Shown here: one piece after another, positions 20,978 through 35,100 of the stretch
How positions within the stretch are numbered: position 1 is the first letter of the stretch
Layout: every line of letters begins with the position of its first letter
Assembly: GCF_024584705.1 (NCBI RefSeq)
Contig: NZ_CP097384.1
Span: 248,001 to 312,000 of the forward strand
DNA from: Blastopirellula sp. J2-11
Lineage (GTDB): Bacteria; Planctomycetota; Planctomycetia; Pirellulales; Pirellulaceae
DNA length: 64,000 nucleotides
Direction of reading: 5' to 3'
Position numbers and translations under genes: made by a program
The notes under the pieces: generated by a model
What the model saw: the letters and a program-made list of their open reading frames with translations, nothing else
Told to the model about the DNA's origin: nothing
Databases searched by the model: none

Positions 20978-21033
20978 TGAAAACTTCCCAGACGCAGTCC
21001 AGTCCCCACAGGGCGGACTGTCCGTCGAGAATC

Positions 21034-21107
21034 GGGCGGTTAGCTCAGTTGGCTAGAGCGTTACGTTGACATCGTAGAGGTCACAGGTTCGAGCCCTGTA
21101 CCGCCCA
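21034..21107 (+). tRNA. tRNA-Val (anticodon GAC)
   Basis: A full cloverleaf is readable. The acceptor GGGCGGT pairs with ACCGCCC, the D-arm is GCTC...GAGC, the anticodon stem TTACG/CGTAG encloses the loop TTGACAT with anticodon GAC, and the T-arm is ACAGG-TTCGAGC-CCTGT. The discriminator is A and no CCA is encoded. This gene is the integration site of the adjacent element, which restores its 3' half. Its original 3' half and terminator appear at 31025-31116. Confidence 0.97.
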
Positions 21108-21111
21108 CTCC
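21066..21111 (+). repeat. attL, left 46-bp direct repeat
   Basis: The repeat starts in the anticodon loop of tRNA-Val and runs through its 3' end plus CTCC. It is identical, base for base, to 31025-31070. The base just before it differs between copies (G here, C at the right), which helps place the crossover. Confidence 0.95.
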
Positions 21112-21193
21112 TAACTCGCTGCAATATAACGACTTGCGGCGGGTGATTCGGTTGAGACCGCAAAGCGGTTTGATACTGATTCGGCGATAAGTT

Positions 21194-21235
21194 AAGCTCG
21201 TTGGTACCAGAAATCAGTACCAACGAGCTTTTTTT
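21194..21235 (+). terminator. Strong hairpin with T-tract just upstream of the integrase gene
   Basis: AAGCTCGTTGGTAC (21194-21207) pairs perfectly with GTACCAACGAGCTT (21217-21230) over a 9-nt loop, followed by five further T residues. It would stop read-through from the tRNA into the integrase gene, whose ATG lies only 14 nt beyond. It could therefore act as a conditional attenuator of integrase expression. The stem also contains TTGGTACC and AGTACCAA, similar to motifs near the right end. Confidence 0.88.
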
Positions 21236-21249
21236 ATGGAGCCGCCGAA

Positions 21250-22704
21250 ATGGGAATGGTCTTCGATGGTCGCTACAAGCTCTCCTGGATGAAGGACAAA
21301 AGCCGCCGCTGGAGGAAGGTTTACAAGGGAAAGCCCTATTATTTCCCGCTCCGCGAAAGCGAAACCAAGGAATCCAGCTATCCGCGTTGTCTTGCCGCGT
21401 GGAAGGAAAAGAAGGCGGAGCTAGACGCCGCTTCTCTCTCGCCTTGGGACGTTGCCCGAAGCCGCATCCGCTCCCGTATGGAAAAGCTCTCCGAGGGAGT
21501 CGATACGCCGGAGCGTCGACAAGCCTACTACCTTCTCCAGGGAGCTTTGTCTGGTCTGGCATGGGCGGAGAAGGAGAGCTATCCGACCGAGGACCTAGCC
21601 GCCGACCTCGCTACCTCGGAGGACGCCTTTCCGCTCATCATGCGTCCCGCTTCCGATATCCCCGATCCGCTTACCGATGGTCCGGCTCCTTGGGATATCG
21701 CCCCGGACCGCTCGACCTCCGAGACTATCGCGGGCAACGTGGACGACTTTCTCCGCAGCAAGCGAGCCGAGGCCGACCGAGGCAAGCTAAGCCGTCAGCA
21801 TGTCGACAAGTTTCGCTACTCGCTGGAGGACTTCTCCTCGTTTGTCGGAGATCGCTTGCTCTCGGCTCTCAATTCCGAGCTTCTCTCCTCCTATCATGAG
21901 GAGCTAAGGAAGCGGATCGACGCGGGGAAGTCCGCCGCGTACGTCAAAATCTACTCGGAGTCCGTAACGCAGTACGTCCGCTGGCTCTATTCGATGGAGC
22001 GTGTAGAGACGCTCCCTCGCGTCTTGGAGGGCAAGTCCAATCGATTGACGATCTCCGTACCGAAGAAGGAAATCGAGACGTACGACAAGAGCGAGCTAAA
22101 AACGCTCTTCAATCGCATGGAGGAGAGTGACGACGACCTACGGCTCTACGTCTTGCTTATGCTCAATTGCGGTTTCACTCAAAAGGACGTTGCCGACCTG
22201 CGTAGAGAGGAGGTCGACCTCGAAGCCGGAACGATCTCGCGAAAGCGTAGTAAGACCGACCATCACGAGAATACGCCGCTCGTCGTCTATCCGCTCTGGG
22301 AAGAGACTCTCTCGCTCCTTCGTTCCCAGATTCAAACGAGCGGCGATCTCGCTCTCCTCAATCGTAACGGAAAGCCGCTCCGTTCCGAGAGCATCTCGAA
22401 GGACGAGAAGCTCGGCGTAACGGATAACATCGGCCTACGCTTCCGCCGATTTAAGAAGCGGCTTGTGGACGCAGAGGGGGAGAAGAAGGTCGTTATCGAC
22501 AAGCCGTTAAAGGCGATGCGATCGACGGCGGCAAGCAAGCTAGGCGAGCATGAGAGCTACTCCCGTTTCGCTCAATACTTCCTCGGTCATTCAGCGAAAA
22601 CGGTAGCCGATAAGCACTACGTTAAACCCGCTCAAGGCGTCTTCTGCGAAGCGATCGCATGGTTGCGGACGGAGCTAGGTATCGACGCTCTAGGCGACGA
22701 TTAG
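21250..22704 (+). CDS. int: Tyrosine recombinase / integrase (divergent catalytic Arg I)
   Basis: The 484-residue protein has an N-terminal arm-binding region (residues ~1-160), a SAM-like core-binding domain (~160-255) and a C-terminal catalytic domain. The latter shows the box II Arg in KAMRSTAASKL (R424), LGHS with H447, the HYVKP tyrosine Y457 and a beta-hairpin Lys near K335. At the box I position the usual TGxR reads NCGFTQKDVADL, so the first catalytic Arg seems replaced by Thr310. Its location 140 bp from the tRNA 3' end and at one edge of the repeat-bounded island identifies it as the element's integrase. A terminator follows. Confidence 0.92.
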   Translation: MGMVFDGRYKLSWMKDKSRRWRKVYKGKPYYFPLRESETKESSYPRCLAAWKEKKAELDAASLSPWDVARSRIRSRMEKLSEGVDTPERRQAYYLLQGALSGLAWAEKESYPTEDLAADLATSEDAFPLIMRPASDIPDPLTDGPAPWDIAPDRSTSETIAGNVDDFLRSKRAEADRGKLSRQHVDKFRYSLEDFSSFVGDRLLSALNSELLSSYHEELRKRIDAGKSAAYVKIYSESVTQYVRWLYSMERVETLPRVLEGKSNRLTISVPKKEIETYDKSELKTLFNRMEESDDDLRLYVLLMLNCGFTQKDVADLRREEVDLEAGTISRKRSKTDHHENTPLVVYPLWEETLSLLRSQIQTSGDLALLNRNGKPLRSESISKDEKLGVTDNIGLRFRRFKKRLVDAEGEKKVVIDKPLKAMRSTAASKLGEHESYSRFAQYFLGHSAKTVADKHYVKPAQGVFCEAIAWLRTELGIDALGDD

Positions 22705-22734
22705 CCCTTCTTCTCTCGCCTCCTGCTTCTCTCA

Positions 22735-22761
22735 AGCTCGGCTATCCGCCGGGCTTTTTTT
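22735..22761 (+). terminator. Intrinsic terminator after the integrase gene
   Basis: AGCTCGGC (22735-22742) pairs with GCCGGGCT (22748-22755, one T-G pair) over TATCC, followed by a run of T. Confidence 0.9.
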
Positions 22762-22790
22762 GTGTACCGGCTAGCGGGTTCCCGCAGTCT

Positions 22791-22804
22791 GTCCATATAT
22801 GGAC
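22791..22804. promoter_or_regulatory. 14-bp perfect palindrome, candidate operator
   Basis: GTCCATATATGGAC is a perfect palindrome between the integrase terminator and the next gene. It is placed where a regulator of the early/left operon could bind. No partner protein is assigned. Confidence 0.45.
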
Positions 22805-22923
22805 GAAAGATGGAAATAATCTGTCAAATAGCATGTTTCCGTATGTTCATAGCAATTTAACCATGCTCTATGGATAGGAGTTACACGAAAGTTCTAGTCT
22901 CTATTCAGCAGGAAGATATTTTC

Positions 22924-23445
22924 ATGGTAATGACAAACTTGGAAGGCCTGGCCTTCGACCCGGCTTCCACTCCGGAGATATACCTCCGCTTCGCCGAGAA
23001 GAAATGCGGGTTGCCTACTGGGAAGGCATATACGACGCCGGAAGCGTTGCTCTTGGTCGAGCTTTGCGGGTATGACTGCGACCGACCGAAGCTCACGTAC
23101 CAATTGAAGAAAAAATTCTTCAAGTCGCCGGAGAAAGACGAAACCGGTAAGGCGTATTTTTGGAAGAGGGAGAACGTCCTCGACCTAATCCGCTCTCTCG
23201 AAAGTATGCGGGCGTGGCTGCCGATCCATGGCTTTCATTGTCACAAGATGCGATCGGATGAGCTTCAAAAGGGGCAAGACTCGATCGCAAATCAAGCGGC
23301 ATTCGTTGCCGAGTTGGCGACTCGGCCAAGCCGGGAGCTTCTCTCGATGCTCGTAACGACGCTTCAAGAGGGCAATCGTAAGCTTATCGCCTTGGTGCTT
23401 CACGACCGCTTAGGCCATTTAGACGACCACTTGCAGCGTAACTAA
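22924..23445 (+). CDS. Unknown island protein, possible winged-helix DNA-binding
   Basis: I use the ATG at 22924 because a GGAAG site lies 8 nt upstream; an ATG at 22870 without such a site would add 18 residues. The ~173-residue product contains TTPEALLLVELCGYDCDRPK and AYFWKRENVLDLIRSLESM, a pattern resembling excisionase or MerR-like helix-turn-helix segments. The C-terminal half is helical (NQAAFVAELATRPSRELLSM). As first gene after the integrase it could be a recombination directionality factor, which is inference from position and the HTH-like segment only. An AAACGCCAC motif follows its stop. Confidence 0.65.
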   Translation: MVMTNLEGLAFDPASTPEIYLRFAEKKCGLPTGKAYTTPEALLLVELCGYDCDRPKLTYQLKKKFFKSPEKDETGKAYFWKRENVLDLIRSLESMRAWLPIHGFHCHKMRSDELQKGQDSIANQAAFVAELATRPSRELLSMLVTTLQEGNRKLIALVLHDRLGHLDDHLQRN

Positions 23446-23460
23446 CCGAAGCTCGCTAGC

Positions 23461-23472
23461 AAAAAACGCCAC
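23461..23472 (+). repeat. AAACGCCAC motif, copy 1
   Basis: AAAAAACGCCAC lies 15 bp after a stop codon. It is the shortest of four copies of this motif in the island, and the extension CTCTAA seen in the others is absent here. Confidence 0.6.
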
Positions 23473-23546
23473 GCTTGGGAGACGGTATTCCGTCCTCTCT
23501 GAGAGAAGTAGTAATAAGGTAATTAAGTAAGTAAGGGGAGAAAGAA

Positions 23547-23957
23547 ATGGTAGGAATCAGAATTACAAAGGAAGAGAAAGATTCAATCTACTACCACTAC
23601 GAATGCGGTTACACCGACTTCAAGAGCCTTGCTTCTATGCTCGGACTTAGTGAATCGTCCGTACGCAAAGTCGTGAGGGAGTATCGAGAGAGTCTCCGGC
23701 AAGAGCAGGAAGAGTACGAGCTTCAGCAAGAGCAGCACGAAGAGTGGAGGCTTTACGAGTGCGGCGTCTTCGTCCGTTGGTTCGGTCCTCTCCGTATGGC
23801 GGTCAATGGTGGCGATGGAAAGTACCGCTATTGGGTCAAGTGCGAGGAGAGGCGAATCTTTTACGCCTCGTCGCAATGCTACCGAACCGCCGAAGCTGCT
23901 ATGCAAGGAGCGGACGAGAACGCTCAAAGCTGCTACGGCTACTTTCTGCCTAGCTAG
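23547..23957 (+). CDS. Small HTH-domain protein of the island
   Basis: A GGGGAGAAAGAA ribosome site precedes the ATG. Residues ~5-48 (TKEEKDSIYYHYECGYTDFK, SLASMLGLSESSVRKVVREY) fit a homeodomain-like helix-turn-helix such as those of resolvases and transposase regulators. A Glu/Gln-rich helix (RQEQEEYELQQEQHEEW) that may form a coiled coil follows. The C-terminal ~65 residues hold several Cys and aromatic residues (WVKCEERRIFYASSQCYRTA). Likely a DNA-binding regulator; partners unknown. Confidence 0.7.
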   Translation: MVGIRITKEEKDSIYYHYECGYTDFKSLASMLGLSESSVRKVVREYRESLRQEQEEYELQQEQHEEWRLYECGVFVRWFGPLRMAVNGGDGKYRYWVKCEERRIFYASSQCYRTAEAAMQGADENAQSCYGYFLPS

Positions 23958-23975
23958 CCGAATTTCTGAATTCCT

Positions 23976-23992
23976 AAAAAACGCCACTCTAA
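23976..23992 (+). repeat. AAACGCCAC motif, copy 2
   Basis: AAAAAACGCCACTCTAA lies 18 bp after a stop codon and 21 bp before the next start codon. It matches the core of the longer copies at 24617-24659 and 30848-30890. Confidence 0.65.
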
Positions 23993-24013
23993 TCAGACCA
24001 CAGGTAAACGACT

Positions 24014-24628
24014 ATGAACGCTACGAAACGACGACCGCCGATCCCGAAGCATAGGAAGCATGCGGAGGCGAAGCCGAAGTCCTCCCTCGTTACGAAAGCT
24101 GATAACGCTCCAAAGCCTTTCAGCAAGCTTTGCGACAATTGCGGCCAACCGATCGAGCATGAGCACGCTTGCCACTTCTCACGACTCACGACTTCGCTTT
24201 GCCGGCCTTGCTCTACCGCAGAGACAGGACGCTCAAACGCAAAGCTCTCCGATGATGAAGCCCGCTACGCTTATGAGCTTGTACGTGCTGGAGAGCGTCG
24301 AGCAAAGGTTGCGAGCGAGATTGGTGTCTGTACTTCCGTTGTGGATCGGATCGTCAAAGGCGAGAGCTACCCTCACTTGGAGCTACGACCGTTGCTACCT
24401 CTTCCAGAGAAACTATCCGGTAGATACCTGGAGATCGTCAATCTGATTCGCTTCAATCGTCGACCGATTGGAACGCAAGAGATTGCTGCGATCCTCGATG
24501 CGGATACGCCGACAATCTTTAAGGCTTGCTCTCGGCTCGCTGCTAACTCTCGGATTGTCTCGGAGTCCTGCACTGTCGACGGTCAACCGAAGCGGGTATG
24601 GCGAATGTCCGAGGAGTGCGGCGGGTAA
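24014..24628 (+). CDS. Zinc-ribbon plus HTH protein of the island
   Basis: The 204-residue product has a basic N-terminus and a four-Cys zinc ribbon (LCDNCGQPIE ... LCRPCSTAE). A first helix-turn-helix-like region follows (SDDEARYAYELVRAGERRAK, VASEIGVCTSVVDRIVKGES), then a C-terminal winged-helix-like part (IGTQEIAAILDADTPTIFKA). This looks like a transcription factor or a phage-type regulator with two DNA-binding modules. No close family is recognised. Its last codons overlap the 43-bp repeat at 24617-24659. Confidence 0.7.
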   Translation: MNATKRRPPIPKHRKHAEAKPKSSLVTKADNAPKPFSKLCDNCGQPIEHEHACHFSRLTTSLCRPCSTAETGRSNAKLSDDEARYAYELVRAGERRAKVASEIGVCTSVVDRIVKGESYPHLELRPLLPLPEKLSGRYLEIVNLIRFNRRPIGTQEIAAILDADTPTIFKACSRLAANSRIVSESCTVDGQPKRVWRMSEECGG

Positions 24629-24659
24629 TAAACGCCACTCTAAAGACCAGAGATATACC
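24617..24659 (+). repeat. 43-bp repeat, copy A, containing AAACGCCAC
   Basis: It matches 30848-30890 at 40 of 43 positions. It spans the last codons and stop of the upstream gene (TGCGGCGGGTAA), the motif AAACGCCACTCTAA and a shared AGAGATATACC. The three mismatches cluster at 24645-24648. Confidence 0.85.
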
Positions 24660-24762
24660 CCCGTCTCTGGGTCCTCCCGAGGAACCTTTTTCAGTTGCTG
24701 TAGGGGGGAACAACCGGATTTTGTGAGTGAGTTTAGTTTAACTAGGCGGAAATGAGATTCTT

Positions 24763-25338
24763 ATGAGTAACGCTCTCGCTATCCCGGACTTCATTCTCGT
24801 TTCGATTCATTGTTACGCATCGGCATTGGCGGCGGTTGAAAATCCGTACTGCAAGGAAGTAAAGCGATGCGAGTACGCTCGTCGCGGTTGGCTTTCGTAT
24901 CGTCCTCGTATGTGGGTCTCGAAAGAGGATCAACTCGACCTCGGCCAATTCGTCAAAGCGTTGAAGCTCAACGAACGAAACAAGCTCGTTGAGGTCCATC
25001 GCGATCGACGCAATCGTCCGGTTTGGGTGCGGCTCACTCGCAAGGGAAAAGAGAAGGCGTTAACAATCGCAGAGCGAGAAGGGATCGAGCTTGAAGACGT
25101 TGCCTTGCCGGATACGACCATGCCGGAGCCGCCGCTCGATCAGTCCGAAGAGATCGCTTCGTTAAAAGCAACGGTCGCGGAATACGAGGAGCGGCTAATC
25201 CTCCTCGAAGCGGCGGTCTTCGCCCAGCAAGCCGACGCCGTTCCCGCTTCCTACGACGACGAAGAGAACGACTACGGCGAAGACGACGAAGCTACCGCCT
25301 CGGCATCTTTCGACTACGACGAGGAAGCCGACGCCTAG
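24763..25338 (+). CDS. Winged-helix-like protein with coiled coil and acidic tail
   Basis: The 191 residues begin with a region resembling a small winged-helix domain (FVKALKLNERNKLVEVHRD, VWVRLTRKGKEKALTIAE). A Leu-rich helix likely to form a coiled coil follows (SEEIASLKATVAEYEERLIL), and then a strongly acidic, disordered tail (YDDEENDYGEDDEATAS). It lies two genes upstream of the capsid fusion. The fold suggests a MarR-like regulator, while a helical protein with an acidic tail could also bind capsid or scaffold proteins. Neither role can be proved from sequence. Confidence 0.62.
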   Translation: MSNALAIPDFILVSIHCYASALAAVENPYCKEVKRCEYARRGWLSYRPRMWVSKEDQLDLGQFVKALKLNERNKLVEVHRDRRNRPVWVRLTRKGKEKALTIAEREGIELEDVALPDTTMPEPPLDQSEEIASLKATVAEYEERLILLEAAVFAQQADAVPASYDDEENDYGEDDEATASASFDYDEEADA

Positions 25339-25460
25339 GACCCGATCCGCTCGAAGCCTCAAGGCGAAGCCAAGTCCCAGCTACTACATCTTCTCCAGAG
25401 AAAACAACGGCGAAGCCGCCGAAGCACTAACGCGGCAAAACGTCCGATGAAAGGAGTCCC

Positions 25461-25658
25461 ATGTCCATAACCGTTTCCTGCCCGCTCTGCGGAAATACCG
25501 AGAGCAAGGTTACGCACACTTCGCATTCGTTCGAGGACGTAGAGAAGGTTCGGCAGATCGTTACGACTCGTCGCCGCGTATGCTCCTCCTGCGGTCTTCC
25601 CTTCAAGTCTCGCGAGATTGCCGTACGGGACGCGATTCTAGGACTTCCGCAGATTTGA
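25461..25658 (+). CDS. Small NrdR-like zinc-ribbon protein
   Basis: AAAGGAGTCCC precedes the ATG. The 65 residues carry CPLCGN and CSSCGLPF, and the spacing and intervening VRQIVTTRRRVC match the zinc ribbon of NrdR, the ribonucleotide reductase repressor, without its ATP-cone. Small zinc-ribbon proteins of this kind (cf. phage Ogr/Delta activators) often control late phage genes. Its place immediately upstream of the capsid promoter fits such a role (inference). Confidence 0.75.
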   Translation: MSITVSCPLCGNTESKVTHTSHSFEDVEKVRQIVTTRRRVCSSCGLPFKSREIAVRDAILGLPQI

Positions 25659-25680
25659 TAGATGTATCATTCGCCGATAC

Positions 25681-25708
25681 TTGCTAGCCGGTTGTGATAT
25701 GAGATAAT
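25681..25708 (+). promoter_or_regulatory. Candidate promoter of the capsid fusion gene
   Basis: TTGCTA (25681-25686) and GATAAT (25703-25708) are separated by 16 bp, with a TGN extended -10 element just before GATAAT. The promoter starts about 35 bp before the capsid gene, which has its own AAAAGGAGAT ribosome site at 25731-25740. Confidence 0.6.
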
Positions 25709-25743
25709 GCTATTTCATGACTGGCAGATCAAAAGGAGATACC

Positions 25744-27714
25744 ATGCCCAAGAGCTTCCTGCAAAACATATTCGGCCATCGCAGAGCCGAGCGAGCCTTT
25801 CCCGATTCGCTAGAACTATCCGCGACTCTCGACATTACCTCCGCCTCGGCTGGAGCCGGTTCAAGTCCGGCGAAATTCTCGATGGTCGCGAATACCGGTA
25901 AGCCGATGGTTGTCGGCGACTTCGACGACCCGGTCCTAATCGTTCTCTCTGGGGCTCGCTTCGAGAAGTCGACGACTCCGGTAATCATGGACCACGATAC
26001 CTCGCTCCGTCTCGGGCATACCACGAAGCAGACCATCGACGAAAGCGGCATCAAAGCCGAAGGAGTTGTTTCTTCAACGACCGAAGTTGCGGAAGGGTTT
26101 GCCAAGGATGCGAAAGCGGGCTTTCCCTTTCAAGTCTCGATCGGCTCGAAGATCGAGAAAGCCGTCTACATCCCCGAAGGCGAACGAGTCCAAGCTAACG
26201 GGCAAGAGTGGGAAGGACCGCTCCTTCTCGTCCAGGAAACGACCATCAAGGAGCTATCGGTAACCGTCCTCGGAGCCGATAGCGAAACCTCAATCCAAAT
26301 TGCCGCTTCACGAAAAGGAAAAGATACCATGCCGCAATCAGAACAAGAGCTTCAAGCGAACCGACGCTTGCAGGCAACGGAAGAGCTTCGCGTCGACCGC
26401 ATTCGTGCGGCGGCTCAACAGTACCAGCACGACGAATTCTCCGGCGATATCTTCAAGGGGATTCGCAGCGTTGCCGAAGCCAAGGCTCACGCTATCGAAA
26501 CGGGCATGGCGCCTGCCGAGCTAGAGCTTGCTCTTGTCCGAGCGGCTCGCCCCGGTCCCGTCCTCGCCGGTGTATCTGACCGAGCCGGACGAGGCGGGGT
26601 CGGGAGTGCGGCGGCGGGGAAGACGATCGAAGCGGCGTTGCTTCTCAAAGCTGGCTACCAGACGATTGCGGAGAAGGCGTACGGCTCTCAAATCTGCGAG
26701 GCCGCTCATCCGCTCCGCTCGGCTTCCTTCATGGACCTTTGCCGCTACTCGCTGACCTCGTCCGGTCGAGAAGCTCCGACCAATCGGCACGACCTCATTC
26801 AAGCCGCTTTTAGTACGGTCGCGATGCCGAACGCCTTGGGCGGCTCGATGGACAAGCTTGCGGGCGTCTTGTTCCTGGAGGCTCCGTCTCCTTGGAGAGC
26901 CTTCGCGACCGTCCGCGACCTTGGTAACTTCCGGACGCATACGGTAATCAATCCGCAGCATTCCGGGAGCCTCGAAAAGACGGGAGAGACTGGCGAAGTG
27001 AAGCACGGCTATCTCGGAGAGTCGACCTCGAATATCAAGCTGGATACCTACGCCAAGACGATCTCTTTTAGCCGCCAAGCTGCCTACGCCGACGACTTGA
27101 CGCTCCTGGACGATATCCCGCAAGTCTTCGTCTCGCAGGCTAACAAGCGGCTTAACGATCTCGTCGCCTCGGTCCTCCTCGGCGGTATCGGTTCTCACTG
27201 GACGACGCCTCGCGGCAACCTCATCTCGGACGCTCTAGGCGTCGATGGTCTCTCGGCGGCGATTGCGGCCATGAAGCGGCAGGTTGATAGCGAGGGTAAC
27301 AACGAGGACATTATCCCGAGTTGCTTGCTCACTACTGCTACGGATGAGGCGACCGGCTTGCAAGTCCTCCGCTCGGTCGAAGTCGCACGCGATACCACCG
27401 ACCGCGACAACCAACCTACGGGTAACCCGTTGTTCTCACGGCTCCAGCTTGCTTCCGAAGCTCGTCTTGAAAACTCGGCGAAGTTTGGCGAAGCGGCGAC
27501 CTCGGAACATTGGTGGTTATTCGGTAGCCAGCAATCGAACGCCGTCTTCGTCGGTTTCCTCGATGGCAACCAAGCTCCGAGAATCGACTTCTTCGGAATC
27601 GATAAAAACGCCAATACCCTCAACCTGCAATGGCGAGTCTTCATCGACTTCGGTGCGGCTCTCGGTTATCCGGGAAGCTCGGTCTACAGCATCGGAGACG
27701 ACTCGTCTCTCTAA
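25744..27714 (+). CDS. Prohead protease / major capsid protein fusion
   Basis: The ATG at 25744 follows AAAAGGAGATACC and gives 656 residues. Residues ~1-190 form a prohead-protease-like domain with His84 in VIMDHDTSLRLGH and Ser132 in FPFQVSIGS, the expected catalytic positions, followed by TTIKELSVTVLGAD. Residues ~196-285 are a helical, scaffold-like segment (QSEQELQANRRLQATEELRV). The rest is a major capsid domain (FYI-like strands around AFATVRDLGNFRTHTVINPQ, FSRQAAYADDLTLLDDIPQ, VLLGGIGSHWTTPRG) resembling gpT/HK97-type heads. Family knowledge: such fusions process themselves during head assembly. No portal, terminase or tail gene is in the island. It has its own promoter, an internal start and a terminator. 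Confidence 0.88.
   Translation: MPKSFLQNIFGHRRAERAFPDSLELSATLDITSASAGAGSSPAKFSMVANTGKPMVVGDFDDPVLIVLSGARFEKSTTPVIMDHDTSLRLGHTTKQTIDESGIKAEGVVSSTTEVAEGFAKDAKAGFPFQVSIGSKIEKAVYIPEGERVQANGQEWEGPLLLVQETTIKELSVTVLGADSETSIQIAASRKGKDTMPQSEQELQANRRLQATEELRVDRIRAAAQQYQHDEFSGDIFKGIRSVAEAKAHAIETGMAPAELELALVRAARPGPVLAGVSDRAGRGGVGSAAAGKTIEAALLLKAGYQTIAEKAYGSQICEAAHPLRSASFMDLCRYSLTSSGREAPTNRHDLIQAAFSTVAMPNALGGSMDKLAGVLFLEAPSPWRAFATVRDLGNFRTHTVINPQHSGSLEKTGETGEVKHGYLGESTSNIKLDTYAKTISFSRQAAYADDLTLLDDIPQVFVSQANKRLNDLVASVLLGGIGSHWTTPRGNLISDALGVDGLSAAIAAMKRQVDSEGNNEDIIPSCLLTTATDEATGLQVLRSVEVARDTTDRDNQPTGNPLFSRLQLASEARLENSAKFGEAATSEHWWLFGSQQSNAVFVGFLDGNQAPRIDFFGIDKNANTLNLQWRVFIDFGAALGYPGSSVYSIGDDSSL
26313..26331 (+). 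promoter_or_regulatory. Probable internal translation start for capsid-only product
   Basis: AAAAGGAAAAGATACC precedes an in-frame ATG (26329, residue 196), closely copying the gene's own start context (AAAAGGAGATACC-ATG). It would yield a ~461-residue scaffold-plus-capsid protein lacking the protease domain. Confidence 0.65.
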
Positions 27715-27766
27715 GCTCCACTCCCTCTCTGTTTTCCCCGCGAAGGTTTCCAGGGAGGCGGGTTCT

Positions 27767-27807
27767 GGCGTAGCCGTTGGGCAGGCGGCTACGCCTTCTT
27801 TCGTTTT
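27767..27807 (+). terminator. Hairpin with T-rich tract after the capsid gene
   Basis: GGCGTAGCCG (27767-27776) pairs perfectly with CGGCTACGCC (27786-27795) over a 9-nt loop, followed by TTCTTTCGTTTT. The next gene starts only 14 nt beyond, the same arrangement as at the integrase gene. Confidence 0.82.
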
Positions 27808-27821
27808 GGAAGGAGTCTCCG

Positions 27822-28064
27822 ATGGAATGCCGAAAATGCGGATGCCGAGGCGGTCAAACGCTCGACGCTCGTTACGCAACCTTCCGAGGCGTAAGAATCG
27901 TTATCCGAAAGATTGCTTGCCGAGCCTGCGGAGCGGTCTACTCCCTCCAGAAGAAGACGAAGCCGGGAGAAGACCGCGACGAGTACGCCCCCGCTCCCGA
28001 TCACGAAAACGACCGCCGCGAAGCCGACGAAGACGAGAGCGACCGATTCAATCCGTTTCTGTAG
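27822..28064 (+). CDS. Small zinc-ribbon protein with acidic tail
   Basis: The ATG at 27822 has a GGAAGGAG ribosome site. The 80-residue product begins MECRKCGCRGG and has a second CxxC pair (KIACRACGAVYSLQ), together forming a zinc ribbon like that of the gene before the capsid. A charged, probably disordered tail follows (DHENDRREADEDESDRF). It sits alone between the capsid terminator and the toxin-antitoxin promoter. A regulatory role is likely from the fold; nothing more can be said. Confidence 0.72.
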   Translation: MECRKCGCRGGQTLDARYATFRGVRIVIRKIACRACGAVYSLQKKTKPGEDRDEYAPAPDHENDRREADEDESDRFNPFL

Positions 28065-28168
28065 TCCGCTCGTCCCCTCTCTGTCAATAAATTCCGCTCT
28101 AGGCAGATTTTAGGAGGAGGCAATCCCGGCTACTTGGGGGGGGGGCGTCTTTGACAGCAGGGGTGTGC

Positions 28169-28197
28169 TTGACTTTTGTACGGTCAGACCGTATAGT
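28169..28197 (+). promoter_or_regulatory. Toxin-antitoxin promoter with operator palindrome 1
   Basis: TTGACT (28169-28174) and TATAGT (28192-28197) are exactly 17 bp apart. The spacer contains the palindrome TACGGT-CAG-ACCGTA (28179-28193). This is the expected design for autoregulation by the antitoxin. Confidence 0.8.
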
Positions 28198-28254
28198 TCT
28201 GTTGTGGGGCCGGAATGCATTGTTTTGGAACTGCGTCGGTTGATTGTTGTTTTG

Positions 28255-28269
28255 TACGGTTGAACCGTA
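28255..28269 (+). promoter_or_regulatory. Operator palindrome 2
   Basis: TACGGT-TGA-ACCGTA repeats the first operator with a different 3-nt centre, 76 bp downstream, and overlaps a possible TATAAG -10 element. Two identical half-site pairs suggest cooperative binding by an antitoxin or toxin-antitoxin complex. The rest of the 258-bp region upstream of the toxin gene holds a run of ten G at 28136-28145. Confidence 0.78.
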
Positions 28270-28322
28270 TAAGTTTTTAGTTCGTGGACTTTCTTTGACG
28301 ATCAGGGAGGCAGAGAAGAGCA

Positions 28323-28766
28323 ATGCCAAATTCAGACAAACTTGGTAAAGGAAACCAAGTTGCTGAAGCAGTGGTTCACTATCCGGTGCACTGCTTTAAT
28401 CCCGAAGACTTGCTTCATTTCGTAGAATTAGACGAGTTCGAGCAGGAATGGAAGGAGTTAGGGTTAGACGTGGAAAGCGATTTATTTGCTGTCCAAATGG
28501 TCATTATGAGCGACCCCAAAAAGGCACCGGTTGTTCCCGGAACGGGAGGGCTCCGCAAGTTTCGCTTTGCCCCTGAACGCTGGAACACTGGCAAAAGGGG
28601 GGCTGCCCGCGTTTGTTACGTCTACTTTGAGGAGCATTGGACTGTCCTGCTTGTGACAGTCTACGGTAAAAATGAAAAAGACAACCTCACGGACGAAGAG
28701 AAGAAAGGAATTCAGATGTATATAAAGAAGATTGGGAAAATACTCTCGGAAAGGTCGTTCAAATAG
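28323..28766 (+). CDS. RelE/HigB-type toxin
   Basis: The 147-residue product has the C-terminal RelE/HigB core: APVVPGTGGLRKFRFAPERW, NTGKRGAARVCYVYFEEHW, TVLLVTVYGKNEKDNLTDEE. Family members cleave mRNA on the ribosome. The N-terminal ~50 residues (PEDLLHFVELDEFEQEWKEL) are longer than in minimal RelE proteins. It lies first in the operon, before the XRE-type antitoxin, the order typical of HigBA, and downstream of two operator palindromes. It may stabilise the island (addiction) or act as defence. Confidence 0.85.
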   Translation: MPNSDKLGKGNQVAEAVVHYPVHCFNPEDLLHFVELDEFEQEWKELGLDVESDLFAVQMVIMSDPKKAPVVPGTGGLRKFRFAPERWNTGKRGAARVCYVYFEEHWTVLLVTVYGKNEKDNLTDEEKKGIQMYIKKIGKILSERSFK

Positions 28767-28817
28767 GAGTTGCATGCGAACGACTTTATTTGGTTTATTA
28801 TTTTAGGTTGGTTTTTT

Positions 28818-29207
28818 ATGGAAGTTGCAGCGATGGAAAGGAAAGTGAGCCGCGGAGCGAAAATCGTTGACCGGCTCAAGAATTTTGCCGAGGCACTCGA
28901 AAGCAACGAGACGATCTCGGATAAATTCACGTGCCGCACGATCAAAGCTGACTTGCAACCGCAGGCATATAGCCCAGAGTTGGTCAAGGAAACACGCAAT
29001 TTGCTTCGTGCAAGTCAGGCAATTTTCGCAAACTTCTTTGGTGTCTCGGTCAAGACGATCCATGATTGGGAGCAAGGGCGTAACGTACCGCAAGGTGCTG
29101 CTTGCCGTCTTATGGATGAGATCAGGAGAAACCCTGAGTACTGGTTGAAGCGACTGATAGAACTTTCGGTTGTCTCTGATAATTGCGACGAGGCAATTGC
29201 AAAATAG
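28818..29207 (+). CDS. HigA-like XRE-family antitoxin
   Basis: I use the ATG at 28818; another at 28833 is also plausible. The protein carries a Cro/CI-type helix-turn-helix: LVKETRNLLRASQAIFANFF, GVSVKTIHDWEQGRNVPQGA. The N-terminal part (KIVDRLKNFAEALESNETIS) would bind the toxin. Such antitoxins neutralise HigB and repress their own promoter, here probably through the TACGGT/ACCGTA palindromes. The gap after the toxin gene holds a tiny in-frame-stop ATG reading at 28774-28806, which could help translational re-initiation. Confidence 0.82.
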   Translation: MEVAAMERKVSRGAKIVDRLKNFAEALESNETISDKFTCRTIKADLQPQAYSPELVKETRNLLRASQAIFANFFGVSVKTIHDWEQGRNVPQGAACRLMDEIRRNPEYWLKRLIELSVVSDNCDEAIAK

Positions 29208-29326
29208 GATTTATGAGCCACCAATACTAGAACTAGTGGGTGGATGTGCCATTTGTATTGCAACGGACGGGCAGATCCAGGAAGAGCGGTGAGGGCCTGG
29301 TAACTCGGGCTCTCTCTTTTTTGCCG

Positions 29327-29821
29327 CTATTGGCTGGTAATAATCGTCCTCCATGTCTCGGCGTCAGCGTAATACATCGTTGCAACCGCTCCCGCGACGT
29401 TACCACAAGCTTCAAACAGATGCCGCGTAGACTCATCTCGGATGATCGGATCGCGGCGAAGCCTCTCTAGCGTGTTTCGGCTTGCCGTGAAATGCAGCCA
29501 CGCTACCCGCTGTCCGTCTTCTTCGTCAAACGCGATCCTCTCGATTGCCCCGATAAGCGAGATTCGGGGCTTTCGCTTGAAGTGGTCTCCCTTGGGGAAT
29601 CCCGCTCGTTGGCTATGGTAGAAAGCGATTCCGTCTCCGGGGCTTGGTCGTATTCCCTTGCGATGGATTTTTCCCCAAACGTCGCTTTTGATATCGAGCG
29701 TCTCCCCATCATCGGTCAATCCTTCGATCATGCTGGCATAGAATGAGTCGATATCGCCCCAATTCGTTTCGCCTTGATTTGCGAGCGAATACAACCAGCC
29801 TACTCCGGTCGTTCCAAGCAT
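29327..29821 (-). CDS. EVE/PUA-like domain protein
   Basis: The only large minus-strand gene in the island, with an AGGAG site before the ATG at 29821. The 164 residues contain SPGDGIAFYHSQRAGFP and PRISLIGAIERIAFD, which match the EVE/PUA-like pattern (GDxxLFYHS... then a strand of the hydrophobic pocket). EVE and related domains bind modified bases and occur in restriction and defence genes. The gene is divergent from the Abi-alpha gene with a 150-bp shared upstream region. The assignment is pattern based and moderate. Confidence 0.6.
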   Translation of the reverse strand: MLGTTGVGWLYSLANQGETNWGDIDSFYASMIEGLTDDGETLDIKSDVWGKIHRKGIRPSPGDGIAFYHSQRAGFPKGDHFKRKPRISLIGAIERIAFDEEDGQRVAWLHFTASRNTLERLRRDPIIRDESTRHLFEACGNVAGAVATMYYADAETWRTIITSQ

Positions 29822-29971
29822 GATCGAGTCTCCTGTAGATGGACGGGGAGAGATGCCTGCCGAAATCTTTCCGCTATATTAGCGACTGCGTTAGAAATAT
29901 TGGCAACAAGCCCGCGAATATTTCAGAGCGGCGTCATTCTACGCTTGGTACGCAAATCGATTGGAGCAGAA

Positions 29972-30793
29972 ATGAGTGGAATTGAGGCGATTAGCGGAGT
30001 ACTAAGACCTGTTTCGGAAGCCGCAGCGAGCCTTCTCGAAAAGCTGCTAGGAGAGCCTTGTCAACTAGCGGGTGGAATCTTGGCCGATCAGATTTACGTT
30101 TGGCAATGGAGGAATCGAATTTCGATTCTTCACAAGGCCCAAGCGATCGTAGAGAAGGACCAAATCGCGGCAAAGGTACTGCCGCCAGGGTTCCTATTGC
30201 CGCTAATAGATGCCGCGGGGAATGTTGACGAAGACGAACTGCAATCGTTGTGGGCGGGATTACTAGCTTCCGCAATCGAGGACAGTTCGTCATGCAATAA
30301 AGCTTTTGTAGAAACGCTGCGAGTCTTAGGTCCGAGCGACGTAAAGATTCTGCGTCGGCTAAGTGTGTCGCCGATTGTCCAGGCGAGCTTTGATAAAGTC
30401 AAAGAGGGAGTGTCTCTTTCCGATCCGTCATTGGGGGAGTTACTTGAAGAAATCGGGTTGATGAGTTCCGAGGATTTCTGGGAATCGGTTTCTCGGCTCC
30501 AGGGAATCGGGCTAGTTAACCTGACCCCAAATGCCGGAAAGCCAGTATATGGTGAGTTCCCAGACCCGCTTTTCGACTCCGTAACGCGTATGAAAGTCGC
30601 TCGTCGCATAAGGATTCGAGTAACTCTCGCTAGATATGGGGCACGTCTTATCCAGAAGTCCACCCGACAAGATGTCTCTCCCGTCTCGGTAACAGATTCC
30701 TGGACGCACCAAAGTGAGCTAACGGAAATGGCGGTGGATGCAAATGTAGCTGCGATGGAAGCAATGCGATACGAAGAAACGGATATTGAATAA
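29972..30793 (+). CDS. Abi-alpha (DUF4393) family protein
   Basis: The ATG at 29972 follows TTGGAGCAG. The 273-residue product has the DUF4393 layout: LLEKLLGEPCQLAGGILADQ, IYVWQWRNRISILHKAQAIV, VLPPGFLLPLIDAAGNVDED and ELQSLWAGLLASAIED, then a variable C-terminal half ending before a helical tail. DUF4393/Abi-alpha proteins are linked to abortive infection against phage. With the EVE-like neighbour and the toxin-antitoxin pair it makes a defence cluster at the right end of the island. A 43-bp repeat lies 54 bp after its stop. Confidence 0.78.
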   Translation: MSGIEAISGVLRPVSEAAASLLEKLLGEPCQLAGGILADQIYVWQWRNRISILHKAQAIVEKDQIAAKVLPPGFLLPLIDAAGNVDEDELQSLWAGLLASAIEDSSSCNKAFVETLRVLGPSDVKILRRLSVSPIVQASFDKVKEGVSLSDPSLGELLEEIGLMSSEDFWESVSRLQGIGLVNLTPNAGKPVYGEFPDPLFDSVTRMKVARRIRIRVTLARYGARLIQKSTRQDVSPVSVTDSWTHQSELTEMAVDANVAAMEAMRYEETDIE

Positions 30794-30847
30794 TCCAAAG
30801 CGGCGGAAGAAGGGCTTCCAGATTCGAGGTAGCTTGGGGCCGAGACC

Positions 30848-30890
30848 TGCGGCGGGTAATAAACGCCACTCTAAACAGGAGAGATATACC
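30848..30890 (+). repeat. 43-bp repeat, copy B, containing AAACGCCAC
   Basis: It matches 24617-24659 at 40 of 43 positions, including CGGCGGGTAATAAACGCCAC. It follows no intact gene of the same kind; the preceding codons in the equivalent frame end ...ETCGG-stop, compare EECGG-stop at copy A. It may mark the remains of a related gene end. Confidence 0.85.
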
Positions 30891-30895
30891 TGCAT

Positions 30896-30922
30896 TTGGT
30901 ACTGCGGTTGGTACTTGGTACT
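30896..30922 (+). promoter_or_regulatory. Cluster of TTGGTACT motifs, candidate integrase arm or excision sites
   Basis: TTGGTACT occurs at 30896-30903, 30908-30915 and 30915-30922, about 100 bp inside attR. TTGGTACC and AGTACCAA occur in the hairpin near attL (21201-21223), and TGGTACC abuts attR at 31018-31024. The placement near both ends suggests protein-binding arms. Confidence 0.5.
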
Positions 30923-31024
30923 AATCATGCCGACTAGATAGTATCAGTGCGTATAATTCACAAGTCGTTTTAAAGTAATGGGTTAAGCGTGTTGACGCCT
31001 GGGTTTGTCCGCTAGTCTGGTACC

Positions 31025-31070
31025 TTGACATCGTAGAGGTCACAGGTTCGAGCCCTGTACCGCCCACTCC
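31025..31070 (+). repeat. attR, right 46-bp direct repeat
   Basis: Identical to 21066-21111: the 3' part of tRNA-Val from its anticodon loop to CTCC. It is not a second tRNA gene because the 5' half is missing. It marks the displaced original 3' end of the tRNA. Confidence 0.95.
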
Positions 31071-31072
31071 AT

Positions 31073-31116
31073 AAAAAGCTTTGCGTTGCAATTATTGGCG
31101 ACGCAAAGCTTTTTTC
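31073..31116 (+). terminator. Probable original tRNA-Val terminator
   Basis: AAAGCTTTGCGT (31075-31086) pairs perfectly with ACGCAAAGCTTT (31101-31112) over a 14-nt loop, followed by T residues. It lies right after the tRNA 3' fragment at attR, where the tRNA transcript would have ended before integration. Confidence 0.88.
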
Positions 31117-31747
31117 GTTTCTTGCCGGCATCCACCAGACCGCTTGGCTTCTGTCCGCTAGGTTGGACCGGACCGGACCGCTTCTTTTTTTGTTCCAGGT
31201 TGGACCGGACCGCTGAAATTCTTTGTTTCAAATTGCCTAGACCCCCTGGTGGTTAATTTGGGAGGTTTGGCGATGTGGCAGGCACGGCCTGGCCTACGGT
31301 TTTTCTAGTTGGACAGGACCGCTGTCCGTTTTGTTGGGGGAAGTTACTCATTCTGCCGTAGTGGGCATTTGGGGTGTTTGGGGAGGATGCGTCTGGGAGC
31401 ACCAAAGCCTGCCGATAACCTCGGGACTCCTCTCGCGTGGAAACGTCATGGCACATCGAGACGCGCCCTTTGCCAGACTCTTTCACCTCGTCTCAAGCCG
31501 AGGGCGTCAGAAAACGAATGTCCTGGGCGATCGATCAGACGCCCGCATTAGGAGGAGCATTATCACGGAAAATCGAGCGAGTGAGCAAGCGACAATCTAT
31601 TGCCCGGTCAGGGGCGTGGCGGGAAGCAAACAACGCGATCGAGAGGGGGAAGGCCAAGCCTCAAAAATGGGACGCGATCGCATGGCAACCCAACCAGTTC
31701 GTTCCGAACTGGTTGGGCCATCCTTCCGTCCAGCGGTTTTGTGGGCG
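31117..31747. repeat. Repeat-rich non-coding strip outside attR
   Basis: Degenerate repeats of the type TTGGACCGGACCG occur near 31162, 31200 and 31308. A GGCAGGCACGGCCTGGCC segment at 31279-31296, read on the minus strand, belongs to a sequence that I recall recurring between genes in planctomycete genomes. Open frames in this strip do not look like proteins. A perfect 13-bp hairpin (31689-31717; CCCAACCAGTTCG arm) lies after the end of the next minus-strand gene. Confidence 0.5.
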
Positions 31748-31936
31748 CTACTTGCTCAGCTTCTTTTTCGCTTGAGCGACCCCTTTGCTCACCGTGTCGG
31801 CGAATTCGGCGGCATCCATTTTCGCCAGCATCAGAAAGGCTTCGGAGAGCACGCGTTTGGTTTCGGCGACGGTGATCGCCGTTTTGTCGGTATCGACGCG
31901 GCGTGCGATCTCGTTGTAGAAGTCGTTCAGTTTCAT
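31748..31936 (-). CDS. Small helical protein, unknown function
   Basis: AAGGAAGCGAAA precedes the ATG. The 62-residue product (starting MKLNDFYNEIARRVDTDKTA) is fully helical in appearance, with a central ETKRVLSEAFLMLAKMDAAE and a Lys-rich end. The start signal and sensible composition support a real gene. I recognise no family. A strong hairpin 31-59 bp downstream may terminate it. Confidence 0.68.
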   Translation of the reverse strand: MKLNDFYNEIARRVDTDKTAITVAETKRVLSEAFLMLAKMDAAEFADTVSKGVAQAKKKLSK

Positions 31937-32073
31937 TTTCGCTTCCTTTTCAAACCGGTTGAGGGGATGGGCAACCGTTTAAGGATAAACGACTGACGAC
32001 GATGCCGACATCCTGGAACAAAAAAGGCGGGCGCTTGTTCCAACCGCAGCGCTCGGCGTCCTTCCAAAATATA

Positions 32074-32105
32074 GAAAACCTTGCGCCGCAATTTGCGACG
32101 CAAGG
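32074..32105 (-). terminator. Terminator of the large exported DJ-1 protein gene
   Basis: On the minus strand CCTTGCG and CGCAAGG form the stem base with further pairing inside, followed by TTTTCTATATTTT. Confidence 0.75.
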
Positions 32106-32135
32106 CTGTTGCCGTTCCTGGATTCATGCAGCTCG

Positions 32136-35100
32136 CTACTCCCAAGTTGCAAAGATATCCTCGACCTGTTCGACATAGCTCGCTTCGCTAATCAGCTGGG
32201 CGATCGTCAAACCAAACTGGCTGGCCGAGTCATAATTTTCGGCGGTGATGATTCGTCCGTCGACGATCACGTCATCGGTCGCGGTGGTTGGATCACCGAC
32301 GCTGGCCGAGTTGACCATCACGGCGCCGTTCGCTTCGATCTGCGATCGAGTGGTGACCATCACGCCGCCCGCGCTCGGCGCCGTTTCTCCCCAGGCCGAA
32401 ACCGTATGGCTGTCGAGCAGGCTGGCTCCGTTTACGCGAGCGTAGGCCAGAACCGAGACGCCGTGGCAAATCGCCGTGACGTATTTGTCCTGAGCCGCAA
32501 AATCGTTGATTAGGCTGTTGACGGTCTCTTTGAGCGCCGGCGAGCCATTGTAGGCGCCCTGGTCGTACGTTCCTTCATAGGCGTACTGATACTGAGACGA
32601 GCCCCAGCCGCCGACGAAGACGATGGTCGAATAGTCGACCGCCGACGCGTCAAACAGCGTCAGGTCAGGTTGCACATAGCCGCCGTCGACGCCTTCGCCA
32701 GAATTGACATGCGGCGAGGCGGTGTCCAAAGTCGCGGCCGCAACGACGACCGAAATCCCGGCGGCTTCCAGCGAGGCCCGCGTGTCGGCATATTCCTGAT
32801 AGTAGAAATCTTGATTGGCGATCACCATTAAGACCGGCAGCGGCTCCGAGGGAAGCGTCGGCTCGGCGACTTCGACGTTGACGATTTGCGTCGCCGTGTT
32901 GACGCCGTCGAAGACGCTGATCTCGACCTGGAACTGTCCGAGGTAACCGGCGGCGGGATCGATCGACAGGGTGGAGCCTGACATCAAGACGCTGACCGGC
33001 AACGCTTGCGGGTCGGCCAGCAGATTGGGGTCGGCATAGAAGGAAGGATCGAGATTGGCCAACAGCTCGCTCGCTGCAAATGTTCCGCCCCAGCGATAAA
33101 AATCACCGGTCGGCAGCAGATAGAACCAGTCTCCATTGGCCGCTTGCAGCCAGCGTTCGTTTTGACCTGCGAAGTTGGTGTGAAAGTTGGCGGCGACTTG
33201 CAAGTCGTACTGTTGGTCCAATTGCTCAGCCTCGGATCCGACGAGATGCGCCGAATAGATGAGTTGATCGGCGGGGAGGGGACTGACCGCCGAGATTTCT
33301 AATTGGAAGATGCCGCTATCGGCGTCGATCTGCAGATCGTCGATCGTTGGCAGCGAGAGTTCGGTGTTGGTGACCTCGACGGCAAACTGCGTCATCACCG
33401 GCTCTAGACCGTCGGTCGCGGTGACGACGACCTCGAAGCTGCCGACATAGCCGTCGGCCGGGTTGATGAGGAGTTGACCGCCGACCATGGCGACTTCGAC
33501 CGGCAAGAGTTGTGCTTCGGTCAACAGCGACGGGTCTTCGTAGTAGGCAGGATCGAATTGGCCGAGCAGCGGGCTCGTCTCGAAGGCGCCGCTCCATTGA
33601 TGCAGCTCTCCGTTAGGCGTTAAATAGAGCCAAACGCCGCCGGCGCCTTGCAGCCAGCGCTCGTTTTGACCGGCCCAGTTGTCGTGGTAGTTGGCGGTCG
33701 CCGGCAGCTGATACTGCTGGTCGATTTGGTAGGCGAGCGACTGGACGACGGCGACATTCCAAGCGATTGAATCCCCATCGGCGTCGAATGCTGCCAGGGG
33801 GACCATGATTTCATCCACCAGTCGCGACATGGTCTGATCAGCGATCGGGGTGATCGTGGGCGCCGAATTGGCGACCGTCACCACGATCTGCTTGGTCGCC
33901 TCGATTGGCTGATCGTCGCCACCGAGGTGAATCGCGACTTCGATCGCTAGTTCGCCCAGAGAGCCGGTCGCCGGAATCACCGTCAGTTCGTTGCCGCTCA
34001 CGCTGACGCTGGCCGGTAATTCAACATCGATGAGCGAGCTGGGATCGTCATAGACCGACGCGTCGAGCTGCGCCACTTCTACGCTGCTTTCAAACGTTCC
34101 ATTCCAAGCGAACAATTGTCCGGTCGGCAATAGAAAGAACCAGTCGGAACCGTTACCGTGAATCCAGCGTTCGCCATGTCCTCCCCAGTCGTCATGGTAA
34201 CTCGCTTCGGCGTGAAAGTCGTACTGCTGATCGAGTTCGTATTCGAGACTGCCTGCAACTGTCGCCGTGTAGGCCAGCGGCGTACCATCGGCGAGCGTCA
34301 GCGGGAGCGCGATCAGGAGTGAGCCTTGGTTGGCGCTCATCGTTTGATCGCCGATCGCGTCGAGCACGGCGGAGAGATCGATCGGATCTTCCGGCGTCGG
34401 ATTGGTCGGCGGAATGATATTGTCGCCGAGAAAAGTGAGCAACTGCTCAGCGGTGGCTTCGGCCACCAGATCGACGCCGGTCAGTTCGGTCGGCAATTGG
34501 GGACGAGCGAATCTGGCATATTCAAACCCGGCGGTCAGATCAGGATTGAATTCTTCGCTCGGCGTCGGATCAACGACTTGGCCAGGGACGAGCAAGCTGT
34601 TGTTGTGCGTGAAGGGATCGAAGTCATTCGCTTTTTCCCAGTTGCTGTAGGTCACTAGACCTACCTGAAGCGTTTCTGGCATGTCGCTGCGCGTGTAGCG
34701 GCGATGGACTTGCCAATCTTCGCCGGGCAAGCGATAGAGTGCGATCATTGAGTCGCCGATCCGCGCGATTTGCAGCTGCGCCGTGTTGGAGTTGATCGGC
34801 GTCAGTTCTAACTGCGAGTTGCTATTGCGAGTCGTTTTTACTTCGAGCGAAAACTCGTTCGCTCCGTTGCCATAGCCCATCGAGAGGAAGACGTAGTTCT
34901 CACCGTTGTTCGTCCCGTCGTCGGCCATCGAACCGGGGCTCCAATCGACGGCCGGATCGACGATGTCGCGCGGAGTGCGGATCATGACGCCGCCGAGCGA
35001 AAATTGACCGTCGCCGGGAACGTCATCCGCATCGCTGCCGCCGATATCGTCGCGATCGGTGATATGAACTTCGGTCGTGAAAATGAAGTCGCCGGTCACT

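Follow-up and report, generated by a model that had tools for sequence, protein, structure and literature searches.

The window, i.e. the whole stretch of DNA analysed here, comprises 64,000 nucleotides (G000:C1:248001-312000) of a 6.43-Mb single-contig genome and contains an island of 9,959 bp, measured between like positions of the two copies of a 46-bp repeat. The island genes are arranged in the order of tyrosine integrase, a gene named X here, two HTH-type genes, an acidic protein of unknown function, a zinc ribbon and a protease-capsid fusion, followed by a second zinc ribbon, a RelE/MqsA-like pair, a minus-strand gene and Abi-alpha. The features are as follows:

21034..21108, plus strand: tRNA-Val (GAC), the integration site (ARAGORN)
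21066..21111, plus strand: att repeat, left copy, 46 bp, overlapping the 3' end of tRNA-Val (repeat comparison; empty site of congener)
21250..22704, plus strand: tyrosine integrase, 484 aa (Phage_integrase, E 2.1e-10; phrog_1, E 1.7e-14)
22870..23445, plus strand: gene X, 191 aa, weakly MerR-like winged helix (homologs adjoining capsids; profile link; fold; counts)
23547..23957, plus strand: 136-aa HTH protein, weakly sigma-70 region-4-like (Sigma70_r4, E 0.0043, below cut-off)
24014..24628, plus strand: 204-aa protein with a cysteine motif and an HTH (weak matches only)
24763..25338, plus strand: 191-aa protein of unknown function with an acidic C-terminus (best family E 0.09)
25461..25658, plus strand: small zinc-ribbon protein (Zn_ribbon_NrdR, E 1.1e-5, just under cut-off)
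25681..25708, plus strand: weak promoter-like site (sequence scan)
25744..27714, plus strand: prohead protease-major capsid fusion, 656 aa, alternative ATG at 25717 (Pfam, PHROG, AlphaFold2, structure matches)
27767..27795, plus strand: terminator-like hairpin, 12 pairs (sequence scan)
27822..28064, plus strand: small zinc-ribbon protein with C-terminus NPFL, ORF opening at 27777 (weak zinc-ribbon matches)
28323..28766, plus strand: RelE-like toxin candidate (RelE, E 6e-4, below cut-off; phrog_5869, E 2.9e-18, no function)
28770..29207, plus strand: MqsA-like/HTH antitoxin candidate (MqsA_antitoxin, E 6.8e-5, below cut-off)
29327..29821, minus strand: 164-aa protein, EVE-like by eye only (no family match)
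29972..30793, plus strand: Abi-alpha abortive-infection protein, ORF opening at 29774 (Abi_alpha, E 5.7e-17; PDC-S47, E 1.2e-6)
31025..31070, plus strand: att repeat, right copy, 46 bp (repeat comparison; empty site of congener)

The two att copies, which consist of the final 43 bases of tRNA-Val plus 3 further bases, are identical (expected by chance, 0). The tRNA locus is present in all four genomes of the genus that were searched, and a sequence search detected no capsid match in the other three. In two congeners tRNA-Val is directly followed by DNA matching the right flank of the island (window 31021-31150 in G080 and 31021-31121 in G018), i.e. the site is empty; in the third, G107, the island is also absent, but ~11 kb of other DNA precedes the resumed flank. 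This stretch of other DNA (L247, 1357-12407) lies after tRNA-Val and showed just one att-type sequence. The window island, whose capsid gene is intact, has integrated site-specifically, and with integrase and att repeats it meets the corresponding criterion for a phage satellite.

The capsid ORF (25744-27714) is open and intact, and its product combines Peptidase_S78 at residues 75-189 (E 1.1e-5) with Phage_capsid_4 at residues 355-639 (E 3.4e-23), both above the Pfam cut-off, and matches the PHROG 'major head and protease protein' with E 4.4e-45. The intact protease/capsid fusion named in the sequence-only reading is thus confirmed, as is the HK97 fold which that reading expected from structure prediction: the best PDB matches to the AlphaFold2 model (mean pLDDT 78, pTM 0.53) are HK97-fold phage capsids (E ~1e-9, TM-score at most 0.57 by target length), the SaPI1 and HK97 capsids among them, and all 50 structural matches listed are phage or phage-satellite capsids. 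Residues D83, H84, S132 and E170 are invariant in the 28 aligned family members (28/28); S78 proteases rely on H, S and E residues of this kind. A promoter and a terminator of its own had also been claimed for the gene. Signals of both types do flank it, but support for the promoter is only weak, with two promoter-like sites found in 3.1 kb against 0.8 expected; terminator-like hairpins numbered 11 against 3.4 expected in the same scan. Judged by dN/dS, which was 0.07-0.29 in 12 of 12 pairs, the capsids of relatives are under purifying selection. No relative close enough for such a test was found for the window capsid, which is 35-37% identical to its nearest relatives near full length and 40% over a C-terminal part; a 52% match covers the protease part only and lies in a broken gene (L125).

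An encapsulin-like compartment had been offered as one explanation of the capsid gene, and the HK97 fold does satisfy the shell-protein criterion. The fused S78 prohead protease fails the stand-alone criterion, however, the structural matches listed include nothing but capsids of phages and their satellites, and the surroundings are those of a mobile element with phage relatives, so that this explanation is left without support and appears scarcely credible.

Pfam and PHROG scans of the remaining 11 island proteins gave no match to terminase, portal or connector, and the portals and TerLs of related prophages, used as tblastn queries (E 1e-4), had no match in window 18001-34000. Virion-type names were weak: the HTH antitoxin candidate matched 'tail assembly' (E 0.006) and baseplate (E 0.3), and the 24763-25338 protein a holin family (E 0.094, PHROGs); for the 29327..29821 protein there was no Pfam, PADLOC or PHROG match. 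The proposal that the island lacks every other recognisable virion gene is therefore upheld by these searches for terminase, portal and tail genes, and a hidden portal or terminase, which would have refuted it, was sought among the island proteins and not found. Without a full virion gene set the island meets a further criterion for a phage satellite, and it fails that for a gene transfer agent, a complete head-tail cluster. In 12 elements of relatives, 72 of the 94 proteins remaining after exclusion of capsids, integrases and primases were scanned (the 22 dropped were mostly short or near-duplicates), and no TerL, portal or tail protein stood among the matches listed, nor among those listed in a rescan of 43 of the 72. 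These scans covered the best 25 of 74, 37 and 43 families, and a lone weak terminase match could be hidden. One of the 43 unknown proteins, from a 76-aa gene of L078, matched a terminase small subunit (phrog_57, E 3.2e-5); this was rejected because the excisionase family phrog_66 matches better (E 1.1e-11), and the match was absent in ten candidates rescanned. ClpP/SDH-type proteases carry the name head maturation protease in two relatives and are seemingly cargo.

Capsid matches were detected in 50 of 149 genomes sampled from the family, own genome included; the latter has no second match to the window capsid. In the first locus comparison 31 of 41 loci (40 fetched plus the window) carry one portal family, and four (L031, L039, L048 and L065) are normal prophage regions in which TerL, portal and capsid genes, and mostly also tail-type genes, are present (in L031 portal phrog_21 and TerL phrog_38/15). 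A second set of capsids, ~32-37% identical to the window protein, lacks packaging and tail genes of its own across the mapped regions. Among named genome contigs 94 loci were matched and 80 kept, mainly from Phycisphaerales and Pirellulales; a few matched contigs are labelled Verrucomicrobiota, Acidobacteria or Chloroflexota, which may be binning errors. The IMG/VR search gave 78 loci; no relative was found among viral contigs with the window capsid alone, and an alignment of relatives was needed as query. A tree built from 177 distinct capsids places 66 tips in one group with the window at a node support of 0.17, and a node of 64 inside that group, holding the window, has support 0.99. In a maximum-likelihood tree of 63 capsids all 27 chosen satellite capsids fall on one side together with the outlier L142 (95/91, SH-aLRT/UFBoot); without L142 the UFBoot value is 59, hence grouping at the deeper nodes is only moderate. 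The satellite capsids form one lineage apart from the prophage capsids in these trees, with the window protein on a long branch near the base, and compact elements with similar gene sets recur at different sites. The recurring set without terminase across genomes, suggested earlier as a check for a satellite family, was thus found, in the form of capsid elements with integrase and defence cargo.

Several side observations concern the copies themselves. Broken or partial capsid genes in L126, L119 and L125 are decaying copies in relatives' elements, a second capsid-like ORF directly follows the first in L162 (7410-8771), and some records hold several capsid copies, e.g. CP054186 with L078 and L126. 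In the own genome, TerL and portal (PHROG) as well as protease-like and capsid-like ORFs recognised by eye lie at G000:C1 ~3,662,000-3,680,000 (L251/L252); this tailed-phage gene set could be a possible helper or an unrelated prophage and is not claimed as helper. A portal search with phrog_12 gave no match.

The homology of the capsid to those of ordinary prophages with portal and TerL upstream would also fit a prophage remnant, left behind after loss of the other structural genes, as would the similarity between one zinc-ribbon gene and a gene that follows TerL in phages (relatives of the 25461..25658 protein adjoin X in L049 and lie directly 3' of TerL in phages L169 and L170). A remnant is nevertheless very unlikely given the identical att copies with the site empty in two congeners, the recurrence of similar compact sets at different sites, the lack of portal/TerL traces and the intact ORF; the broken or partial capsids of L125, L126 and L119 show how actual remnants look. 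A full prophage in relatives, of which the island would be a deletion, was looked for as a possible refutation and not found. We consider it probable that the island is a phage satellite in integrated form, divergent within a planctomycete-wide family that makes its own head and uses the portal, terminase and tail of a helper. Satellite status is well supported and lacks experimental proof; neither particles nor excision or transfer have been observed. This is the first of the options raised in the sequence-only reading (a satellite that packages into a capsid of its own, perhaps a smaller one, and uses helper portal and tail), and it is favored by the recurring terminase-less set, the small head and the helper being inferred.

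X stands where prophages keep the portal gene, upstream of the capsid. A census covered 154 of 179 distinct capsids, i.e. those with at least 2 kb upstream, and found portal only in 95, X only in 54, both in one and neither in four, so that 149 of 154 have exactly one of the two. The capsid with both is that of L053, whose portal piece belongs to the interrupted prophage gene. The window was counted under X although its X lies 2.3 kb upstream of the capsid with four genes between; in relatives X is at or near the capsid start. The X and portal models were built from these same loci, and related loci are not independent. X also stands beside some capsids that do not belong to the main group (L147, L163, L044/L124 and L049), and one of four such X-only capsids is the second capsid ORF of L162. 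Of 74 X matches 67 are near a capsid ORF of at least 400 aa and seven in loci with a partial or broken capsid. When 149 genomes were searched starting from X, 17 places were detected, ten of them beside or near a capsid or capsid fragment; of the seven without a known capsid alongside, six were inspected and are apparently remnants, and G025:C253 is uninspected. In the initial X alignment (A3) the sequences of L053 and L056 fitted badly, and their X family is linked to the window X by profile only (probability 94.8, E 5.2e-8, 73 columns); the comparison of X profiles A7 and A8 is weaker (71.7).

The structure model of X is confident over residues 31-180. It has no Foldseek match below E 0.001; in a second structure search MerR-type winged helices lead (Z at most 7.1 over 55-62 residues), unrelated helical proteins stand among them at Z 5-6.5, and no terminase small subunit is listed among the structural matches. 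X is, on this model, a putative DNA-binding protein; because the scores are weak and mixed with those of unrelated helical proteins, the MerR label is a hint only and not a function. Two arrangements of X were observed in addition. In L049 (9064-11019) a Clp-type protease-capsid fusion replaces S78 with X directly upstream and a tRNA-Val nearby, so that the protease part differs while X is kept; and one contig (IMGVR_UViG_3300048836_000712, holding L156 and L163) has two X-plus-capsid units of different capsid groups, one of them within TerL.

Genes recurring around satellite capsids encode X (~185 aa), a HARE-HTH-type protein, a sigma-70-like protein and several clusters of primase/helicase-like proteins (of which C14 and C135 were checked by PHROG). 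An integrase recurs as well, either a large serine recombinase (all 6 scanned have Resolvase and Recombinase domains) or one of the tyrosine type. The relatives have primases and an excisionase-type gene, and the L047 element a DnaB-type helicase. The window has integrase, X and capsid, its sigma-like HTH is only weak, and no AlpA-like or primase gene was recognised in the island by Pfam and PHROGs; beyond capsid and X it shares few genes with its relatives. Capsid and X are thus constant, and integrase and replication genes vary between elements; since the relatives were found by capsid, the constancy of the capsid is partly a selection effect. Cargo includes a type II methyltransferase in L158 and a RES-domain protein, just below the cut-off, in L047. 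L074, a relative with a tyrosine integrase, carries a Pycsar cyclase and effector as cargo (5380-6669). In L051 a gene similar to 27822..28064, with the same NPFL ending, was seen by eye after the capsid. None of 22 contigs tested for terminal repeats, a sign of a free circular form, had them (0/22).

With defence-type cargo in island and relatives, the capsid could also act against phages, as proposed earlier, by co-assembling with or titrating helper head proteins and so blocking virion formation, the island being mainly a defence island; a relative inserted in TerL or portal moreover keeps the prophage gene interrupted for as long as it stays there. The protease residues are conserved as if for maturation, however, and mobility genes, the replication genes of many relatives and the narrow element size (below) point to transmission. 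Capsid interference as the main function is therefore improbable but not excluded; interference and transmission are not exclusive, and an interfering capsid remains possible beside either an own-head satellite or one with a dispensable capsid.

Eleven elements related to the proposed satellite, the window element included, could be delimited exactly, seven by exact repeats and four by TerL insertions:

window element: 9,959 bp, tRNA-Val, exact repeats
L047: 9,963 bp, tRNA-Val, exact repeats
L106: 9,579 bp, tRNA-Ser, exact repeats
L078: 10,772 bp, tmRNA called there, exact repeats
L114: 11,436 bp, tmRNA called there, exact repeats
L074: 11,229 bp, repeat similar to that of L078/L114, no tmRNA call, exact repeats
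L132: 11,276 bp, similar repeat, outside the tmRNA scan, exact repeats
L153: 10,317 bp, TerL insertion
L156: 10,407 bp, TerL insertion
L158: 10,757 bp, TerL insertion
L054: 10,745 bp, TerL insertion

They range from 9,579 to 11,436 bp (mean ~10.6 kb, standard deviation ~0.6 kb); L096 (~11.6 kb) and L053 (~10.4 kb) are approximate and were excluded. L078, L074, L114 and L132, all with tyrosine integrases, share a common 26-29-bp repeat at one place, around 16040. Because their capsids are near-identical these four are not independent, and since the loci hold at most ~10 kb on each side of the capsid there is a bias to short elements. We infer that the narrow size, despite varied integrases and cargo, is as a fixed small container would impose. 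This inference bears on the alternative that the element is a satellite whose capsid is not its vehicle, i.e. a spare or captured late gene, with the DNA travelling in helper heads. One report gives precedents: capsid genes of GN-PICIs are common but dispensable, and HE-PICIs are presumed to acquire late genes of their helpers (PMC10111431). Against it stand the narrow size, the retention of capsid and X while integrase and replication genes vary (in part an effect of the capsid search), the single capsid lineage apart from those of prophages and the purifying selection in relatives; we regard this alternative, the chief competitor of the favored reading, as unlikely, though still to be reckoned with.

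Some relatives are embedded in late genes of a related phage group, and these carry serine recombinases. In L153, L156, L158 and L054 the TerL of a sister-group prophage is cut at codon 292, and the halves, 73-92% identical to intact TerLs, flank the element; with L113, where only the left TerL half lies within the stretch, five relatives are located in TerL at the same aspartate codon (one end only for L113). The crossover is at GA of this codon in the TerL motif VVIDDPQTDE, which we take to be the Walker-B motif. The recombinase frame continues into the TerL nuclease domain (GpA_nuclease, Pfam) in L153, L156, L054 and L096, and into TerL by PHROG in L158; in L096 TerL is split near codon 354. 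The ~10.4-kb element of L053 interrupts a portal gene, whose two parts match an intact portal at 79% and 84% identity. In L151, L153, L156, L158 and L096 the element has a portal as its neighbour, either intact or truncated by the contig. In L161 (15301-17415) the frame of the serine recombinase continues as the C-terminal portion of a DNA methyltransferase, which suggests a third insertion target. For mobilisation by a helper the embedded relatives are circumstantial evidence.

To our knowledge, none of P4, SaPI and PLE has its own major capsid as a hallmark; they redirect the helper capsid protein into small shells. Like the elements described here, for which the small capsid is inferred, they are small satellites with small capsids (PMC10690885; satellite review PMC11389934). 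The cf-PICIs, defined in PMC10690885, resemble the planctomycete element in that the satellite makes its own head (inferred for the latter), but encode capsid, protease, portal, connectors, both terminase subunits and HNH according to that paper; the window has only the protease-capsid and does not meet the portal/terminase/connector criterion. The same source describes the Streptomyces satellites MulchRoom and MiniFlayer, which also have their own capsids and depend on helpers but in addition encode terminase and portal, without obvious replication genes (PMC10690885). GN-PICIs share a capsid gene, an integrase at one end and small size; they differ, according to PMC10111431, in that the capsid gene is reported as dispensable, not being needed for transfer, and in that an E. 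coli model is packaged as phage-length concatemers, whereas the planctomycete elements have a constant capsid and X pair and a narrow size. The GN-PICI criterion of integrase, AlpA and primase is not met by the window. HE-PICIs are alike in being small (the first example, Eco567.11capE, is 11 kb and has its own capsid gene) and in lying inside late genes of a helper prophage, terminase and capsid genes included; according to the report they form one tyrosine-integrase clade, only tyrosine integrases being described, with AlpA and primase (PMC10111431). The embedded planctomycete members, in contrast, have serine recombinases in TerL/portal and a capsid that is a protease fusion, while others, the window included, use tyrosine integrases at tRNA/tmRNA genes. 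The late-gene criterion is accordingly not met by the window (tRNA-Val) and is met in form by L053, L054, L113, L153, L156 and L158, whose prophages are not proven helpers.

The planctomycete form had been described earlier as not known. We found no described planctomycete phage satellite in the literature, which is weak evidence since subscription papers were mostly not covered; capsid-carrying and helper-embedded satellites as such (GN-PICI, HE-PICI, cf-PICI) are already published. Among the papers listed for planctomycete prophages and major capsids together none was by title on satellites, and a search for phage satellites with a serine recombinase gave none by title on this kind.

If the island is a satellite, it would excise when a suitable tailed phage is active, make the self-processing protease-capsid fusion and assemble its own head, probably a small shell for about one 10-11.5-kb genome, with portal, large terminase and tail supplied by the helper. 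X might direct helper packaging to satellite DNA, or start assembly of the satellite head; the head size, the helper and the role of X are inferred. The Abi-alpha and toxin-antitoxin-like genes would be cargo shielding the host from competing phages. A more specific version describes a satellite lineage of the planctomycete superphylum defined by the capsid-protease fusion and X, in which X, in the place of the portal, recruits helper portal or terminase to the small satellite head; members use chromosomal tRNA/tmRNA sites or the packaging genes of the helper itself; the serine recombinase cuts a TerL codon that the helper can hardly change (the presumed Walker-B aspartate); and the helper motor gene is whole again only once the satellite leaves. 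Taken with all its parts together, this version seems to us as apt to fail as to hold.

Capsid-making phage satellites would, if the satellite interpretation is true, extend to Planctomycetota, and X plus a protease-capsid fusion without portal is a simple marker pair for finding more of them. Insertion at an invariant catalytic TerL codon would be a clean case of a parasite choosing a target which its helper has no way of losing by mutation. Two questions become testable by comparing the natural series of elements that have capsid plus X with the related prophages that have capsid plus portal, namely how the size of an HK97-fold head is set and how a head of different origin acquires its portal.
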